A stretch of 64,000 nucleotides of DNA from positions 4,154,001 to 4,218,000 of the forward strand of contig NZ_CP033924.1 in the NCBI RefSeq assembly GCF_003815875.1, given 5' to 3'. Source of the stretch: Chryseobacterium lactis. Lineage in GTDB: Bacteria > Bacteroidota > Bacteroidia > Flavobacteriales > Weeksellaceae. This document shows positions 368 through 9,226 of the stretch, piece by piece. How positions within the stretch are numbered: the first letter of the stretch is position 1; each line of letters starts with the position of its first letter. The translations under genes and the position numbers were made by a program. The notes under the pieces were generated by a model. That model had not been told where the DNA came from. It searched no databases and worked only from the letters and a program-made list of their open reading frames with translations.

Positions 368-1507
368 CTAATCCAAAACACTCCATCCTCTCTTCGGATT
401 GGTATTGGTAGAAACTTCTTGTTCGTTAACAATAATATTTTCTTTTCTCTGACCGATATAATCCAGCTCACTCAGTTTAGAGAAGATCGTTTCCAGACTT
501 CTCAACATCTGTTGAATATACAATAACGGCTCTCCGCAGTTGTGGTGGTCATAGTTGGTCTCAGCCACAATAGAAAGCTGATTTAATAAGGTATGTGGAG
601 CAATTTCGCTCCATTCAAGGCTATAATTCAACATTTCTTCCAATTCAGCAGGAACAAGAAGTTGAGTGGAATTATATAAATGAAGTGCCAGCCTTGCAAA
701 AGATTCGATCAGGAATACCGGCGGTTGCCACGGCGTAATATTCCTAAACTGGAAATACATATCTCCAAAGGTATTTACCATTGTGGTACAAAGAAACTTA
801 ACATTTTGTGCCAGTGCTGTATTCTGATTTTTATGCGATGCTTTCTGAATAATTTTAAATGCATACTGTTGCAGATTTCCAATGGATTTTGCGTAGCTGT
901 TGTAGTATTCTATCAAAGCCGGATGACTCTGAACAGAGGTACACGGCGGGATAAAATTAGAATCTACCTGTGCAATATTGGCCTTCAGATCTACTTTCCC
1001 AACGATCAGATAATTTCCTCCCGAATAGCTGCTGTTGAGCGAAGTTACAGGAAGTAATTCAATGTGGTGATTGGGTTGTGCATTGGGATGACGCGGCGGG
1101 ATCTCTTCCGGATCAATATCACCGAAAGGTACTTTATCAAAAGGATTAACAGAAATAAGGATATAATATTCCCCGTCTGCCTGCTCTTCGTTCATCGATT
1201 TTGCTAATGATTTTACACTGATTCTTCTGTCGTTTAATTCAATGCGATATCCTGCCATCGTAACAGCGCTGCATCGTTTAATGACCAACTGTACATCATT
1301 GGTAGCGGTATTGTGTACATCAAAAATCGTACGATCTGTATATTCGTTAGAAATAGGTAAAAGACCGTAATTATATGTAGTAATCCCAAGTGAATTGGAA
1401 TCTCTGATCGTATCAATTAAGAAATTATCCTGATCATTAAGGTGTCTCTGGGAAACTTTCATCCCATCCACCCAATTGATTGCAAAATGTTTAATAGGTT
1501 GTATCAT
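368..1507 (-). CDS. tssK: Type VI secretion baseplate protein TssK
   Basis: TssK is the trimeric connector between the T6SS baseplate and the membrane complex. This 379-residue protein opens with IKHFAINWVDGMKVSQRHL, the pattern I associate with Bacteroidota (subtype iii) TssK proteins, where W-x-DGM replaces the W-x-EGM of proteobacterial homologues. No signal peptide or membrane segment is visible, as expected for a cytoplasmic baseplate part. It is the last gene of a minus-strand cluster, 26 bases after tssN. The family is assigned by motif and context, not by a search. Confidence 0.8.
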   Translation of the reverse strand: MIQPIKHFAINWVDGMKVSQRHLNDQDNFLIDTIRDSNSLGITTYNYGLLPISNEYTDRTIFDVHNTATNDVQLVIKRCSAVTMAGYRIELNDRRISVKSLAKSMNEEQADGEYYILISVNPFDKVPFGDIDPEEIPPRHPNAQPNHHIELLPVTSLNSSYSGGNYLIVGKVDLKANIAQVDSNFIPPCTSVQSHPALIEYYNSYAKSIGNLQQYAFKIIQKASHKNQNTALAQNVKFLCTTMVNTFGDMYFQFRNITPWQPPVFLIESFARLALHLYNSTQLLVPAELEEMLNYSLEWSEIAPHTLLNQLSIVAETNYDHHNCGEPLLYIQQMLRSLETIFSKLSELDYIGQRKENIIVNEQEVSTNTNPKRGWSVLD

Positions 1508-1533
1508 GTTTAATACTTTTTAATTTTTTGTGT

Positions 1534-2436
1534 TTATGCTTTTCTTACGATTCCCTCCTCCTCATGTTGAATAACTCTTTTACAAATTACCACTTCATTC
1601 TCAGAAATGTTGTTTGTAGAAATATCATGGTCAAAATCTATATATTTTCTAAAACTGAAAAATGATTTCTTAGTATAGAAAATCCAGTAATAAGGCTCTT
1701 TTTCCTCATCTGAAAGGTGAATAACAGAACCCGGATTTTTATGATTGTAATCATCAACTACTCTATAAAACCAGTCCCCGAAAGTAACTCCGGTCGGAAG
1801 TGTTTTTGCTTTAATTCTGAATCGGTTTGAATCTTCTAATTTTTTACTTAATTCAACATTCAAAACCATTAATCTGTCAAAATCTGCCCCTTCAAAATCG
1901 GGAAGTTTCTGCTCCGGAGAATATCTCCAGGTTTTATAAATATCAAAAGGAATACTGATAAACTGAATATAGCAGTAATAAAATACCATTGGAACAACAA
2001 AAATCACCATGCTTGTTGCAGCCATCACCGGATATCCTGTTCCTTTACTCATCCAGTTAAAAAGTAGGGTAAATAAATAGCCACCCAATACAATACACGT
2101 TATTGAAAGTATGGATTCAAATAAAATACTCATCGCAATAGAATCAATATGCTTCTTAAAATATTTATGCAATAAGTTAACATGAATAATCCCAAAAATA
2201 AGATAAATGATCTGAGCAATAATATACCAGTACGGGTTAAAAAGATTTCCGGCAAACCCAAAGACTCCGGGAATAGCCAGACATAAACTGCATAGAAGAA
2301 TGTATACAATAATTACTTTAATTTTGATCGCAGGTTTATTTCTCCTGATTACACCGAGTATAACCATCATAATAATTGCGATTAAAGGCATTAAAATATA
2401 CCTTAAAAAAATACCTTTTACTGAAGAAATTTCCAT
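1534..2436 (-). CDS. tssN: Type VI secretion membrane protein TssN
   Basis: A 300-residue protein whose first ~180 residues hold about five hydrophobic segments (around residues 12-27, 40-62, 68-85, 98-122 and 132-160), followed by a soluble C-terminal domain of about 120 residues. This layout, with an IPGVFGF-type motif in the second segment, matches TssN, a subunit found only in Bacteroidota T6SS and thought to take part in the envelope complex in place of TssJLM parts. It sits between the tssG-like gene and tssK, 26 and 54 bases from its neighbours, so co-transcription is likely. The neighbours strengthen a call that sequence alone would leave moderate. Confidence 0.72.
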   Translation of the reverse strand: MEISSVKGIFLRYILMPLIAIIMMVILGVIRRNKPAIKIKVIIVYILLCSLCLAIPGVFGFAGNLFNPYWYIIAQIIYLIFGIIHVNLLHKYFKKHIDSIAMSILFESILSITCIVLGGYLFTLLFNWMSKGTGYPVMAATSMVIFVVPMVFYYCYIQFISIPFDIYKTWRYSPEQKLPDFEGADFDRLMVLNVELSKKLEDSNRFRIKAKTLPTGVTFGDWFYRVVDDYNHKNPGSVIHLSDEEKEPYYWIFYTKKSFFSFRKYIDFDHDISTNNISENEVVICKRVIQHEEEGIVRKA

Positions 2437-2490
2437 TTGTTTCTTTTCGAATTTATACTTTGTTGGTAGTTGTAAATATAATAAAATAAT

Positions 2491-3432
2491 TTAGAGGAAT
2501 GTAGAGTATCCAAGGCGGCTGGCATTTCTTTCATCATCTTCAAGACTGAAAGAATATTCCAGTTTTTCGGTAACAAAATTTTCCTCCACATCTACGGTTA
2601 CAGGAAGAAAGTAATCATAAAGTGCCTCAAGTACTTTTCTGAACGGACTTCCCGGAATATACTTTTTCATATCCTCATAAGGAATAGGGCCGATATTAAT
2701 CACCCAGTTTCTTTGCCCGTCCATATGTCTTCCACTCGGAATATAGGTTACCCCCAATCTGGAATTCCCCAATAACATCGAGTCGTCATTTTTCTCTATT
2801 TCATCAATAATATTAGGTGAAAACGTTACTTCTACCGGCACTTGCAGAAAAGCGGTCATACATCGTTCAAACCATTTTTTGCTTCCTCTGATCTGGTGAA
2901 AAAACGGTAAAATATGCATAAATATATAGGCATTCTGCTTATCCAGCATTCTGATCAGAGGCCAAAGTTCACTTACAGTCTCCAGTAAAGCATCTGTATT
3001 GCTTGTGATGTCAAATTCAGACTCTTTGAGTAATGCACTGATCTCAGTAAAAAATACTTCCAGTTCAAAAGGACGGAAAAACTTCCTTGCATCATCTTCT
3101 ACCCTTTTCTGTTTCCTGATTTCTCTTACTACCGTGTCTACATTTTTTCTGGAAGCTCCGAGAGACGGTGGATGAAACAACCCTTCAGGAAGGTAATCGT
3201 AAATACCTTCTCTGTAGCTTTCTATAGTATATACTTCCTCGTCAAAGCCTAAATAACTGCTTGAAATACTTTTAATATCCTTTAAATAGGCGCGGTCATT
3301 TACCCCGACCCGTTCAATAAAAATATTGCTTACTGTCCGGTGGTATTTCAACAGATTAACAGCCACAGCCTCAGCCTTAAAGTCTGTCTGCAGCTTATTG
3401 TAATTCATGTCTACAATATTATTCTCATGCAT
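2491..3432 (-). CDS. tssG: Type VI secretion baseplate protein, TssG-like
   Basis: A 313-residue soluble protein with no signal peptide. Segments such as YDYLPEGLFH and KFFRPFELEVFFTEI, plus its length, fit the TssG baseplate subunit as it occurs in Bacteroidota; TssG with TssF and TssE forms the baseplate wedge. The frame is open to an ATG at 3477, but I choose the ATG at 3432 because AGAGGA (3439-3444 on the minus strand) stands about 6 bases before it, an unusually good Shine-Dalgarno site for this phylum. First gene of a cluster followed by tssN and tssK. TssG is preferred over TssF on length; a search would settle it. Confidence 0.6.
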   Translation of the reverse strand: MHENNIVDMNYNKLQTDFKAEAVAVNLLKYHRTVSNIFIERVGVNDRAYLKDIKSISSSYLGFDEEVYTIESYREGIYDYLPEGLFHPPSLGASRKNVDTVVREIRKQKRVEDDARKFFRPFELEVFFTEISALLKESEFDITSNTDALLETVSELWPLIRMLDKQNAYIFMHILPFFHQIRGSKKWFERCMTAFLQVPVEVTFSPNIIDEIEKNDDSMLLGNSRLGVTYIPSGRHMDGQRNWVINIGPIPYEDMKKYIPGSPFRKVLEALYDYFLPVTVDVEENFVTEKLEYSFSLEDDERNASRLGYSTFL

Positions 3433-3438
3433 AGTGTT

Positions 3439-3444
3439 TCCTCT
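3439..3444 (-). promoter_or_regulatory. Shine-Dalgarno site fixing the tssG-like start
   Basis: AGAGGA on the minus strand, about 6 bases before the ATG at 3432. Such sites are rare in this phylum, and this one decides between two in-frame starts (3432 rather than 3477). Confidence 0.55.
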
Positions 3445-3865
3445 GATTATGACTTGTAAAGATAATATATCTCTCAAGTTTGAAAAAATATTTTACCAAT
3501 AATTTTATTTTAAAAATACTAATTTATTGGTATTAAAAAGAAAAAAATTCCGCAAATTCCGTAAAAATACGGGGAAAAGCAGATTTGTTGCCCTTATAAA
3601 ATCTAAAGTTTGGTGTTAAAAACCAGATGTTTAAAAATTCATGTTTCCTGGTTATTCCCGTTTTATGGTAACTCATTGGCTAAATTAAAGTATAAAATGT
3701 TTACTATTCCTCTCCTCTATTCCATTTTTATATTCTTAAACATAAACACATTTTATAAATCTTTCCAAACCTAGGACAATTTCTATTTTAATTGGATTAA
3801 ATTTTATTAACATAATATTATAGAATAAATCCGGGATAAGTCATGCTCATTCCGAATTCGGGCCG

Positions 3866-5170: not shown

Positions 5171-6037
5171 ATGAGACAATTAAAGATCACTAAGCAGGTA
5201 ACCAATAGGGAAACTGCTTCATTAGACAAGTATTTGCAGGAAATTGGTAAAGTAGAACTGATTACTGCGGACGAAGAAGTAGAATTGGCACAAAGAATAC
5301 GTGCTGGCGACAGAGCTGCACTGGAGAAACTAATCAAAGCCAACCTTCGTTTCGTGGTTTCCGTATCTAAACAGTACCAGAATCAAGGCCTTTCTTTACC
5401 CGATTTGATTAATGAAGGAAATTTAGGATTGATGAAAGCGGCAAAAAGGTATGATGAAACTAGAGGTTTCAAATTTATCTCTTATGCAGTATGGTGGATC
5501 CGTCAATCAATTTTACAGGCGTTGGCTGAGCAATCAAGAATTGTAAGACTTCCGTTGAACAAAATTGGTTCCATCAATAAAATTAATAAAGCATACGCTC
5601 ACCTTGAGCAGGAAAATGAAAGACCACCTTCTCCGGAAGAATTGGCTGAAGTTCTTGACATGAGTGAGGAGGATATTAAAGAATCGATGAAAAACTCCGG
5701 AAGACATTTGTCTATGGATGCACCTTTAGTAGAAGGTGAAGATTCTAACCTTTATGATGTATTGCGTTCAGGGGAATCACCAAGTCCGGATAAAGATTTG
5801 ATGCTTGAATCTCTACAAATCGAGATTGAAAGAGCATTGAATACTTTGACTCCAAGAGAGGCAGATTTGGTAAGGTTATACTTCGGACTGAACGGAAAAC
5901 ACCCAATGACTTTAGAAGAAATTGGTGAAACTTTCGATCTTACAAGAGAGAGAGTGCGTCAGATCAAAGAAAAAGCGATCAAGAGATTGAAGCACAATAC
6001 CAGAAGTAAGATTTTGAAATCTTATTTAGGTAAATAA
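5171..6037 (+). CDS. rpoD: Primary RNA polymerase sigma factor (sigma A, RpoD)
   Basis: Housekeeping sigma factor that directs RNA polymerase to the TTTG/TAnnTTTG promoters of this phylum. At 288 residues it has the short Bacteroidota form lacking the long region 1.1 of E. coli sigma 70. Visible parts are region 1.2 ([12 protein letters not shown]), region 2 ([22 protein letters not shown] and the -10-binding [13 protein letters not shown]), region 3 (about 130-200) and region 4 with the [18 protein letters not shown] helix-turn-helix. Its last two codons belong to a 61-bp repeat that recurs 721 bp downstream, so its 3' end is the site of an insertion. Confidence 0.97.
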
Positions 6038-6091
6038 TTTTAGCGAAACAAAATTTTATAGGCGGAGTCTGTTTTCAGGCTCCGTTTTTTT
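6031..6091 (+). repeat. 61-bp direct repeat, copy 1 (rpoD 3' end plus terminator)
   Basis: Identical over 61 bases to 6752-6812. It covers the last bases of rpoD including its TAA, a short spacer, and the terminator hairpin CGGAGTCTG TTTT CAGGCTCCG with seven T. The base before each copy differs (G versus A), and so does the sequence after each T-run. The pair brackets a single AT-rich gene and is best read as the two ends of an insertion at the rpoD 3' end. Confidence 0.9.
6063..6091 (+). terminator. rpoD terminator
   Basis: A 9-bp stem with one G-U pair, a TTTT loop and seven T after it. The downstream gene starts only 12 bases after the last T. Confidence 0.88.
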
Positions 6092-6098
6092 ATTTTTG
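6091..6098 (+). promoter_or_regulatory. -7 box at the insertion junction, leaderless start
   Basis: TATTTTTG matches the Bacteroidota -7 consensus and is made of the last T of the rpoD terminator plus the first bases of the insert. The ATG at 6104 lies 6 bases beyond it, so transcription would begin on or next to the start codon. Confidence 0.55.
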
Positions 6099-6103
6099 TA
6101 TTT

Positions 6104-6736
6104 ATGGAAGAAAATAAATTTAATCAAATTATAAAGAGTGAAACATTTGGCTTAATTTCCGATTTTGGAGAAATGACCTTAGATAGCATTATCGATAATA
6201 ATGTTATAAAAGAAATTCCGATAATTGGAACAATAGCAAAAGCACTAAGTATTGGTATTAGTATTAATGATAAGCTATTCATCAAAAAATTATATTATTT
6301 TTTAATGGAATTAGAAAATGTAGATAGACATATAATCTTAAGAGAAATTCAATATATTGATGATTCCCCAAAATACAAACAAAAAGTTGGTGAAAAATTA
6401 TTAGAGATTATTACTAGAATTGATTCCGATGAAAAGCCTAAGATTATTGGAAAGTTATTTAAGAATTTTATTTCAAAAAATATAAAATATTATGATTTTT
6501 TAAAGCTTTCAAACATAGTTGAAAAAGCATTATACTATGATTTAATTTTACTTAAAGAATGTAAAAACAACAATTTTTATATCGATTTAGATGAGGAACT
6601 ATATAATTTAGGATTGATTGACATAAAAAAAATGGGAAATTTTGATTCAACTGAAATAGAAGATGCTGAATATGATAATATAACCTATATAATTACGAAA
6701 AGAGGAAATCTTTTATTAGAATATGGATTAAAATAA
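6104..6736 (+). CDS. Uncharacterised AT-rich single-gene insert, 210 residues
   Basis: Not a recognised named family. The protein is soluble-looking, Lys/Ile/Asn-rich, with a hydrophobic helix around residues 30-60 containing IKEIPIIGTIAKALSIGISI followed by NDKLFIKKLYYFLMEL. From memory this pattern recurs in uncharacterised bacterial proteins of similar length, some near defence genes, but I cannot name a function. Base composition is much more AT-rich than rpoD or the genes after it, with heavy ATA/TTA/AAA use, which indicates transfer. It is bounded by 61-bp repeats with only 12 bases before and 15 bases after the reading frame, and carries its own copy of the terminator. No integrase lies nearby. 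Confidence 0.8.
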   Translation: MEENKFNQIIKSETFGLISDFGEMTLDSIIDNNVIKEIPIIGTIAKALSIGISINDKLFIKKLYYFLMELENVDRHIILREIQYIDDSPKYKQKVGEKLLEIITRIDSDEKPKIIGKLFKNFISKNIKYYDFLKLSNIVEKALYYDLILLKECKNNNFYIDLDEELYNLGLIDIKKMGNFDSTEIEDAEYDNITYIITKRGNLLLEYGLK

Positions 6737-6751
6737 TAATTAATCATATTA

Positions 6752-6812
6752 TAAATAATTTTAGCGAAACAAAATTTTATAGGCGGAGTCTGTTTTCAGG
6801 CTCCGTTTTTTT
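6752..6812 (+). repeat. 61-bp direct repeat, copy 2
   Basis: Exact copy of 6031-6091, offset by 721 bp. It recreates the end of rpoD (AAATAA) and the terminator hairpin (6784-6792 pairing with 6797-6805), and ends the transcript of the inserted gene. Its T-run is two bases longer than in copy 1. Confidence 0.9.
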
Positions 6813-6950
6813 TTGTAACAATTTCAAAAGTTTGTTCAACTAATTAAAATCATATTCGATATCAAATCTGAAAAGAATTTAAATGCTTAATTTTATTCGT
6901 TGATGCAGAAGGCCTTTCTATAAAATGAACCAATTAATACAAAACAATCT

Positions 6951-7544
6951 ATGAAAAAAATATTCTTCGCCTCTACTCTTGCTCTTGCTATAATTTCCTG
7001 CAGAGAAAATAAACCGGAGAATCCTTTGGCGGACAATGCGGTTGACAATGCCGAATCTTCTGTTTCCACCTCATTTAAAAGTTATCGTGGTAATGAAACA
7101 ACAGTAGACAATATATATTTTGAATTAATTAAAAATGACAAAAAGCTTACAGCACTTAATTCCAAAATAGTAAAAACCTTTGAAGAAAGTGGCAAAGTTG
7201 TAGCTCAATATAAAAACATATTAAACACTTCAGCTTCATTTTACCAGGATGCCAGTTATCAGACAAAAAATATTACAGATTCATTGGTAAAACAGCAGGT
7301 AGAAAAAGAAATTCAGGCCAGCTCTGATCAGTATGATCTTAAAGTTAAAAATATCACAGATCGTATCAATCTGATTACCAAAAACAACGAAACATTAACC
7401 AATTTATATACTGTTTTTAAAATCAGAAAAACACTTCCTGAAATTGAAAAGTATCAAAAGGCTCATCCCCTGAAAACAGATAGCCTGGACAGTTTCATCA
7501 ATAGACAAAATACATTGGTGGAAGAATTAAAAAAATTAAAATAA
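6951..7544 (+). CDS. Lipoprotein with coiled-coil character, unknown function
   Basis: A 197-residue protein with an SPII signal (residues 1-17, lipobox IISC at Cys17), followed by an Asn/Asp-rich linker and a long helical region (about 50-197) rich in Lys, Glu, Asn and Thr with heptad-like spacing. No enzyme motif is visible. Probably anchored in the inner or outer membrane, facing the periplasm. It ends 5 bases before a GNAT gene and may be co-transcribed with it. Confidence 0.75.
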   Translation: MKKIFFASTLALAIISCRENKPENPLADNAVDNAESSVSTSFKSYRGNETTVDNIYFELIKNDKKLTALNSKIVKTFEESGKVVAQYKNILNTSASFYQDASYQTKNITDSLVKQQVEKEIQASSDQYDLKVKNITDRINLITKNNETLTNLYTVFKIRKTLPEIEKYQKAHPLKTDSLDSFINRQNTLVEELKKLK

Positions 7545-7549
7545 CACTT

Positions 7550-8050
7550 ATGACTTATACGACGAAATGGCTTACTGATAAAACACGTGTTGAAGAACTC
7601 GTTGATTTTTTTATTACGCATAAAACCGACTCCTATATTTCCCACAGTGAGATTATGTACGGCAGAGCCTTAGATGCTCAACACTGGAATCCTGACCTCA
7701 GAGCTGTATTTACAGAACAGCTTATGACCGATTATGACTATGACGGAACTTCAAAACTGAAGATTTTAATTGCAGAAAATGAAGATGAAAAAATTGTAGG
7801 AATGCTGGTTTTTAACATTATCAGCAGCCCTTTTAAAAAGTATGCTATTTTAGAAGATATGCTGTTGGATCAAGCTGTGAGAGGACAATCCCTGGGAAGT
7901 AAGCTTATGGAAGAGGTAATCACGGAAGCTAAAAAATGGGATATCAGTTTTATTATGCTGGAAAGTGGTGTTAATAATCATGGAGCGCACCATTTCTTTG
8001 GTAAATATGGTTTTGAAAAAGTATCCGAAAGTTTTATGTTAACATTATAA
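7550..8050 (+). CDS. GNAT-family N-acetyltransferase
   Basis: A 166-residue acetyl-CoA-dependent acyltransferase. The acetyl-CoA loop is the RGQSLGSKLMEE motif (around residues 117-128, Q/R-x-x-G-x-G/S type). The C-terminal ESGVNNHGAHHFFGKYGF is the usual GNAT motif B with a Tyr. The substrate cannot be told. It follows the lipoprotein gene with a 5-base gap. Length is standard for a single GNAT domain. Confidence 0.87.
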   Translation: MTYTTKWLTDKTRVEELVDFFITHKTDSYISHSEIMYGRALDAQHWNPDLRAVFTEQLMTDYDYDGTSKLKILIAENEDEKIVGMLVFNIISSPFKKYAILEDMLLDQAVRGQSLGSKLMEEVITEAKKWDISFIMLESGVNNHGAHHFFGKYGFEKVSESFMLTL

Positions 8051-8107: not shown

Positions 8108-9226
8108 ATGAATACAATTTCAATAGTCGGTGCCGGAATCGGCGGTCTTACTCTGGGAAATGTCCTTAAGCAGCATCAATATGATTTTACGATTTACGAA
8201 TCAGCTTCTGAAATAAAACCTGTTGGAGCCGGAATTATGATGGCTGTGAATGCTATGCAGGTTTTTGACCGGTTGGGTTTAAAAGAAAAAATCGAAAAAG
8301 CCGGAAATAAAATTCATAGAATTACGATAACCGATGAGTCGCTGCGAACCATTTCAAAAACTGAAATTCTTGACCTGGAAAAACAGTACAATTCCTGTAA
8401 TGTAGCAATTCATAGGGCTGAACTTCAAAAGATTCTTGTGGAAAATATAGGTTCAGAAAATATTCAGCTTAATCATTCTTTAGTCAACATTGAAAAGAAA
8501 GATCATTATATTTTAGGTTTTGAAAATAGTGTCCGGGCAGAAAGCAGGATCATTTTTGGAGCAGATGGAATAAAATCGCCAATCCGGAATCAAGTTTTAA
8601 AATCCGGAACGATACGAAATTCAGGACAGAAATGCTGGCGCGGCCTGGTAGACTTTGAACTACCGGAGAAATACCATCAGGAAGCTTTTGAAGTATGGGG
8701 AAAAGGAAAACGCTTTGGATTTGTTAAGATTTCCGATAAAAAAATATACTGGTATGCTTGTGTAAATGAGAAAAGTTTCAGCCACTATAGCACGATTGCA
8801 GAGATTTTCAAGGATTTTGATTCTTTAGTTTTAAATCTTATTGAATCTACTTCAAAAGAAAATATCATCTGTAATACCATCACCGACCTCTCTCCCATTC
8901 CAAAATGGTATTCTGAAAACCTGTGTCTGATTGGAGATGCCGCACATGCCACAACTCCTAATATGGGACAAGGAGCCTGTCAGGCAATTGAAGATGCTTA
9001 TATTATCGGAAGATTGCTGGAGAAAAGCAGTGACTTTAATGCTATTTTTGAAGAATTTCAGAAAATCAGGAGAAAAAAGGTAGATTATATTGTGAGTACA
9101 AGCCGTAGCATTGGAAAAGTTTCTCAGTGGGAACATGGAAATACATTGCGTAATTTTTTAATGAGACTGATTCCGGAAAGTACGAATGAAAAGATGGCCA
9201 GGAAAATTATTGAATTGGAAATGTAA
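8108..9226 (+). CDS. FAD-dependent monooxygenase (UbiH/TetX-like group A)
   Basis: A 372-residue NAD(P)H-dependent aromatic hydroxylase type flavoprotein. The N-terminal FAD fold has GAGIGGLTLG (residues 8-17), the central DG motif is GADGIKSPIR (about 155), and the GD motif LIGDAAHATTPNMGQGACQ (about 276-294) binds the FAD ribityl chain. A conserved Arg of the HRAEL motif is present. Homologues include TetX-type tetracycline-degrading enzymes and general aromatic hydroxylases; the sequence does not allow a substrate call. Cytoplasmic, no signal peptide. Confidence 0.9.
   Translation: MNTISIVGAGIGGLTLGNVLKQHQYDFTIYESASEIKPVGAGIMMAVNAMQVFDRLGLKEKIEKAGNKIHRITITDESLRTISKTEILDLEKQYNSCNVAIHRAELQKILVENIGSENIQLNHSLVNIEKKDHYILGFENSVRAESRIIFGADGIKSPIRNQVLKSGTIRNSGQKCWRGLVDFELPEKYHQEAFEVWGKGKRFGFVKISDKKIYWYACVNEKSFSHYSTIAEIFKDFDSLVLNLIESTSKENIICNTITDLSPIPKWYSENLCLIGDAAHATTPNMGQGACQAIEDAYIIGRLLEKSSDFNAIFEEFQKIRRKKVDYIVSTSRSIGKVSQWEHGNTLRNFLMRLIPESTNEKMARKIIELEM

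Follow-up and report, generated by a model that had tools for sequence, protein, structure and literature searches.

The window analysed here, a 64,000-nt stretch of the Chryseobacterium lactis genome (genome G000 of our set), carries a single small gene directly behind rpoD, enclosed by two identical copies of the rpoD end and its terminator. We refer to the place behind rpoD as the slot and to the gene as the cargo. The locus comprises the following features (window coordinates):

5171..6037, plus strand: rpoD, the housekeeping sigma factor, with Sigma70 regions 1.2, 2, 3 and 4; left anchor of the slot
6031..6091, plus strand: left 61-bp repeat copy (last rpoD codon, stop, leader, intrinsic terminator), identical to 6752-6812, with the hairpin at 6060-6087
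6091..6098, plus strand: TATTTTTG, a putative -7 box (match to TAnnTTTG in a regular-expression scan), overlapping the last T of the terminator run
6104..6736, plus strand: cargo gene, cluster c3, 210 aa (ORF)
6737..6751, plus strand: right spacer of 15 nt, the cargo/second-terminator junction, read from the sequence
6752..6812, plus strand: right 61-bp repeat copy, running on into an 'empty' allele as in G150 and G128
6813..6950, plus strand: right flank, beginning with TTGTAACAAT and matching G150 directly after its single terminator
6951..7544, plus strand: small conserved lipoprotein-like gene (ORF; tblastn anchor), no Pfam family above cut-off; first right-hand anchor
7550..8050, plus strand: GNAT acetyltransferase (Pfam PF00583)
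8108..9226, plus strand: FAD-dependent monooxygenase-like gene (Pfam PF01494); second right-hand anchor

A few kb upstream of the slot, on the minus strand (368-3477), the window also contains Bacteroidota-type Type VI secretion genes (TssN, E 2.8e-87; TssG, E 1.1e-8; a VasE/TssK-like match stayed below threshold).

The two repeat copies agree at 61 of 61 nt and lie 721 bp apart, counted from start to start. When used as a query against its own genome, the repeat matched these two places and no others, which bears out the original prediction of an exact duplication. A scan of the window for direct repeats of at least 30 nt within 5 kb (18-nt exact seed) gave only one other and weaker pair, of 35 nt and 83% identity, so that the 61-nt pair is not a matter of chance. 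The repeat consists of the final base of a GGT codon, AAA, TAA, a 22-nt leader and the strong terminator hairpin. The last codons of rpoD had been proposed to be duplicated together with stop and terminator; this holds for stop and terminator, but just one rpoD codon falls inside the repeat. Hardly any coding sequence is thus 'restored', and what is duplicated is the leader and the terminator. The hairpin (left copy, -18 kcal/mol, z -3.9) has 12 bp and is paired throughout, in contrast to the bulged fold of integron attC sites.

As predicted, the cargo gene, with 210 codons, is the sole ORF between the copies, separated from them by 12 nt of non-repeat spacer on the left and 15 nt on the right. 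Its GC content is 22.1%; the window as a whole has 35.5%, and the final 594 nt of rpoD have 37.7%. Homologue searches gave 45 proteins at E <= 1e-3, the cargo itself counted, and neither Pfam, NCBIfam nor PADLOC offered a credible family. The structure model (pLDDT 84.2) consists mostly of helices, and its C-terminal part resembles winged-helix proteins only weakly; one viral protein is predicted to fold similarly (TM 0.75). Two homologues bear the UniRef name Abi-alpha. The Abi-alpha/DUF4393 model (PF14337) matched at the cargo locus in none of seven genomes, with two sub-threshold matches elsewhere, and in none of 34 aligned proteins, the window cargo among them, at E <= 0.05. An example of PF14337 is ef2833 of Enterococcus faecalis (PMC6356687); going by the available part of that paper, it too is an accessory gene and, at 272 aa, not far in length from the 210-aa cargo, but unlike it the cargo goes unmatched by the PF14337 model. 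Distant homologues occur on 89 plasmid records. On the one Klebsiella plasmid that was read (111,893 bp), the homologue adjoins an FRG-domain gene, and on two small Empedobacter plasmids (L253, 2061-2765; L254, 4974-5678) a distant homologue lies next to tet(X). From this company and from the turnover described below, one may guess that the cargo is an accessory gene of a defence or immunity type.

For the comparison with relatives, rpoD was matched in all 173 genomes of the genus, and the region behind it could be read in 167, window genome included. The nearest relative by rpoD, G150 (96.3% over 594 nt), has one terminator and lacks the cargo; window positions 6752-6950 match it with 86% identity over 199 nt. 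The third member of this starred rpoD clade, G128, likewise has one terminator, no cargo and the same junction, so that the terminator-GTAACA junction is common to G000, G150 and G128. One-terminator empty sites, which the original prediction had suggested looking for, do therefore exist, and relative to its closest relatives C. lactis carries an insertion behind rpoD. In the genus, c3 occupies 6 of the 167 slots, and a second terminator copy is found in 3.

Other gene families are found in the same place. Besides c3, the 167 slots hold c1 (32 genomes), c5 (5) and c7 (4, on the reverse strand), and 120 contain none of these four. The figure for c1 consists of 31 genomes assigned by clustering plus G204, with intact or broken copies counted. 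Cluster c1 encodes a protein of about 150 aa that is unrelated to c3, has by eye one N-terminal hydrophobic segment and is strongly diverged (median identity 36% among 22 proteins). The one member of c5 that was scanned matches Imm26 just over the Pfam cut-off (24.0 vs 23.3 bits). Some slots hold larger inserts, c0 (20 genomes) or c2 (10), and one c0 member matches a 2OG-Fe(II) oxygenase model right at its cut-off; the slot is therefore not purely a single-gene site. A forward ORF of at least 60 aa starting at 61-110 is present in 39 of the 167 genomes (c1 24, c3 6, c5 5, others 4). Outside Chryseobacterium, four of six examined genomes of genus g37 carry yet another gene of 153-163 aa directly after the rpoD terminator, with the FAD gene coming next; the proteins of this family (L278-L280, L283) have hydrophobic segments by eye. 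Since different gene families occur at the same place, it is the slot, rather than one element, that the genomes have in common. The slot of G158 (L199, at its start) contains two overlapping pairs of long direct repeats, one of 554 nt (88%) and one of 225 nt, and no ORF of at least 60 aa before the first anchor.

Not all 'empty' sites need be pristine targets. In 30 of the 120 genomes without c1, c3, c5 or c7, the GTAACA right flank begins no more than a few bases after the T-run. The -7 box is retained in 16 of the 120 (strict pattern) and a c1-like 3' tail in 5; judging by these remnants, some of the empty sites look as if another gene had once occupied the slot and been deleted.

Eighteen of the 173 genomes encode relatives of the cargo. 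The six closest, window included, sit directly after the rpoD terminator (G000, G164, G054, G117, G118 and G187), with ORF starts at 72-77, counted from the first base of the penultimate rpoD codon. In the remaining 12 genomes, no rpoD end was found in the sequence read upstream of the relative. None of the five other carriers has a second terminator beside c3, leaving G000 alone among the six in this respect. On the right, c3 is closely followed by the lipoprotein gene in G164, and abuts the FAD gene in G054, G117, G118 and G187. By eye, the N-terminal part of the protein is better conserved among the six than the C-terminal part, which varies in type (G054 and G118 are unlike the other four), a pattern as in fast-evolving conflict genes. 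A family-wide profile search matched 26 of 320 genomes at E <= 1e-8. G303, a member of another genus, has a homologue of 45% identity behind rpoD; it begins right at the terminator T-run, and the terminator itself is unlike that of Chryseobacterium in sequence.

The junction of terminator and cargo has a recurrent architecture. In a regular-expression scan of the 167 genomes, the T-run passed at once into TAnnTTTG in 25 of 32 c1 slots and in five of six c3 slots; in the sixth, G187, the box is present on reading, the scan having matched an earlier T-run. The same combination was seen in none of the five c5 slots, none of the four c7 slots and 21 of the 120 genomes without the four cargoes. TAnnTTTG is the consensus of the Bacteroidetes -7 box, for which we took consensus and spacing from the available parts of PMC6847099 and PMC9723704, and we infer that the box overlapping the T-run may act as a promoter. 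No clear -33 element was seen by eye upstream of the cargo. In F. johnsoniae the -7 box spans -12 to -5 (PMC6847099, part available), by which transcription of the window cargo would begin at about 6103, a single base ahead of its ATG. The predicted message would thus be leaderless, a type that is rare in F. psychrophilum, where it makes up 5.5% of mapped mRNAs according to the available part of PMC9723704.

Two lines of comparison bear on how c3 came to its present distribution. The first is its turnover on a 573-nt rpoD tree, in which 74 of 163 inner branches are weak and drawn open: c3 requires 6 changes for 6 carriers, c1 25 for 32 and c5 5 for 5, and all cargo changes together amount to 38, these being raw counts without a shuffled control. 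Cluster c1 follows rpoD distance poorly, with a Spearman correlation of 0.18, compared with 0.37 for c3 and 0.47 for the FAD gene (16 proteins, same genomes). The second is the c3 tree of seven proteins, by which the grouping that rpoD gives for G117, G187 and G118 is rejected at full length (AU p 0.0044) and marginally so with the first 150 residues (AU p 0.042). Holding G000 and G303 together is not rejected (p 0.41 at full length, 0.055 with the first 150 residues). On balance, we favour horizontal exchange of c3 over vertical inheritance with many losses, while the marginal N-terminal rejection and the 45% identical homologue in G303 keep some room for ancient vertical descent.

If c3 moved between lineages, the leaders indicate where its left join lies. 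Among 162 genomes, the stop-to-hairpin leader of each of the six carriers has its closest match in a genome without c3, and these nearest-leader genomes are mostly near relatives by rpoD as well (rank 1 for G000, 3 for G164, 11 for G054, 4 for G117, 2 for G187 and 3 for G118). The leaders of G117 and G187, less so that of G118, are also close to one another, in line with their closeness by rpoD. With the nearest leaders coming from c3-less genomes, the join would fall between leader and ATG, a span that comprises the hairpin, the T-run and the -7 box. For c3 in G164 and G054, the leader TATATTTGAAT is unlike those of c1 in genomes close by (G046 and G109; G203), and this difference suggests a join at the T-run. 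The G000 leader resembles c1 leaders widespread in the genus. The last 594 nt of rpoD in G000 show no donor footprint, identity to G150 being 0.95-0.99 in all six bins.

The second terminator of C. lactis has counterparts in two further genomes. In a gapped search for a second local terminator copy, G000 scored 61, G204 36.5 and G146 22, and no other genome exceeded 14; self-comparison, run separately, picked out terminator copies in these three as well. Other cargo between two terminator copies had also been envisaged: other genes do occur at the spot, but a second copy accompanies them just in G204 and partially in G146. In G204 the order is rpoD, terminator, a lipoprotein pseudogene, terminator, c1, with TTAAAATA on both sides of the join. 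The pseudogene (L156) has a premature stop and adjoins the second terminator copy. In G146 the second copy is partial (41 columns, 85%) and follows a reverse-strand c7 gene. At the right junction of G000, no long microhomology was seen. We read all three as two slot alleles joined in tandem, G146 being the weakest case. As the right half of G000 has the layout of the G150/G128 allele, the cargo half looks like the addition.

Taken together, we propose that the place behind rpoD is an integrase-free exchange slot in Chryseobacterium and its kin and that in C. lactis two of its alleles have become joined in tandem by recombination, a reading to which we give a probability of about 60%. In this scheme, a small gene often lies immediately after the rpoD terminator with a -7 box fused to the T-run, so that an ORF landing there would probably be transcribed as a leaderless message. 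Genes would be gained, lost and swapped by recombination, with the left end of the exchanged segment in the terminator/T-run, as sequence comparison suggests, and the right end reaching the lipoprotein or FAD gene or stopping short of it. In G000, a 'terminator + cargo' allele would have been joined to the resident 'terminator + nothing' allele, leaving the terminator duplicated. The most likely route would be uptake of DNA from the same or a nearby species, with pairing via rpoD and terminator and a right-hand join made out of register or at microhomology. Chryseobacterium is reported to possess homologues of the natural-transformation genes of Riemerella (PMC8459023, in the part of the paper available). 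All this looks like ordinary recombination rather than a new mobile element.

The alternatives follow in decreasing order of plausibility. The original prediction was of a site-specific, att-bounded cassette, and in its present form this would mean that a recombinase encoded in trans used the terminator hairpin as att site and inserted a one-gene circle, leaving 61-bp attL and attR. The identical end repeats (61/61), the single gene, the one-copy empty site in G150 and G128, the left join between leader and ATG in all six carriers and 16 PF00589 tyrosine-recombinase matches in the G000 genome are what such a process would leave or need. Against this, all five other carriers have a single terminator at the same spot, hence no bounding repeats; the nearest PF00589 match lies about 300 kb away; a second copy with other cargo is confined to G204 and, partially, G146; and no integrase was recognised at the slot. 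The absence of an integrase between the repeats had been anticipated. It extends to the slot in general, where a representative from every one of the 35 ORF clusters was inspected by eye (over 3 kb where no anchor gene was found), and to a Pfam search of c3 and five proteins of four other clusters for recombinases. We regard site-specific insertion as unlikely; of the predicted event, the insertion is supported and the att-bounded element is not. Nor did a remnant of a larger island, the other origin that had been considered, find support, since no larger island with a mobility gene was seen at the spot within the 3-5 kb examined.

Somewhat more doubtful still is a duplication of the terminator only, in which the cargo was already resident and template switching or slippage at the hairpin placed a copy of the 61-bp sequence after it. 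Hairpins promote both processes, and no second allele is required. The terminator-GTAACA junction that G000 has in common with G150 and G128 speaks against it, however, because it makes the right half look like the intact ancestral allele to which the cargo half was added. We rate even lower the possibility that the cargo has occupied the slot since ancient times, being passed down vertically and disappearing from most lineages, with the duplication alone being recent. The 45% identical homologue in the same place in G303, behind a terminator of different sequence, and the G000-G303 grouping that the c3 tree does not reject (see above) agree with this, but the six carriers are isolated among 167 genomes, the slots of 32 genomes hold a different gene family, and the c3 tree conflicts with one rpoD group. 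Finally, short identical repeats can mislead an assembly, yet the C. lactis genome is a single contig of 5,618,212 bases, 100% complete, and the right half matches G150 as real sequence should, which makes an assembly error conceivable and highly improbable.

Hotspots of horizontal gene transfer without mobile elements, which recombine at flanking core genes and are enriched in transformable bacteria, form a described class (Oliveira et al. 2017, PMC5635113). As far as the available part of that paper describes them, the rpoD slot resembles these hotspots in its position between conserved genes, its fast gene turnover, its lack of a recognised integrase and its host group, which is reported to carry natural-transformation genes. 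Specifically, c1, c3, c5 and c7 turn over rapidly between the same core genes, and no mobility gene was seen by eye among the 35 cluster representatives of the interval. On recombination in the flanking core genes, the evidence is divided between the missing donor footprint in G000 rpoD and the c3 tree, which partly conflicts with rpoD. The slot differs from the hotspots described there in a left border fixed at one terminator, in often holding one gene that starts at the T-run, beside larger inserts, and in the occasional tandem joining of alleles. In pneumococcus, repeat-flanked merodiploids arise by natural transformation and unequal recombination (Johnston et al. 2013, PMC3784515). Judging from the accessible portion of that work, these too are repeat-flanked tandems of two versions of one locus, but they measure about 100-900 kb with repeats such as IS861, compared with 721 bp and a 61-bp terminator at the rpoD slot, where the route is our deduction. 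With rAID, in the part of the description at hand, the slot shares the character of a place for small, fast-changing Bacteroidota genes, one c5 member matching Imm26; unlike rAID, it has no recognised recombinase and holds one gene instead of an orphan-immunity array, and the window cargo has no known immunity domain.

A bolder version of the exchange slot, which we put forward as speculative and rather improbable, would make the terminator-promoter hybrid itself the unit of exchange: modules of 'terminator + downstream gene' would recombine at hairpin and T-run and could stack in tandem, as in G000, G204 and G146, delivering single genes already equipped for expression, without an integrase and in several genera.

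If the exchange slot is real, it would be a small and well-bounded natural example of accessory genes being swapped without a mobile element, with a fixed terminator border, a ready-made promoter, several cargo families and tandem alleles as visible intermediates. The mechanism of integrase-free hotspots would thereby become directly testable, and the slot would draw attention to small genes, so far unstudied, with a possible role in defence against phages or in immunity between bacteria.
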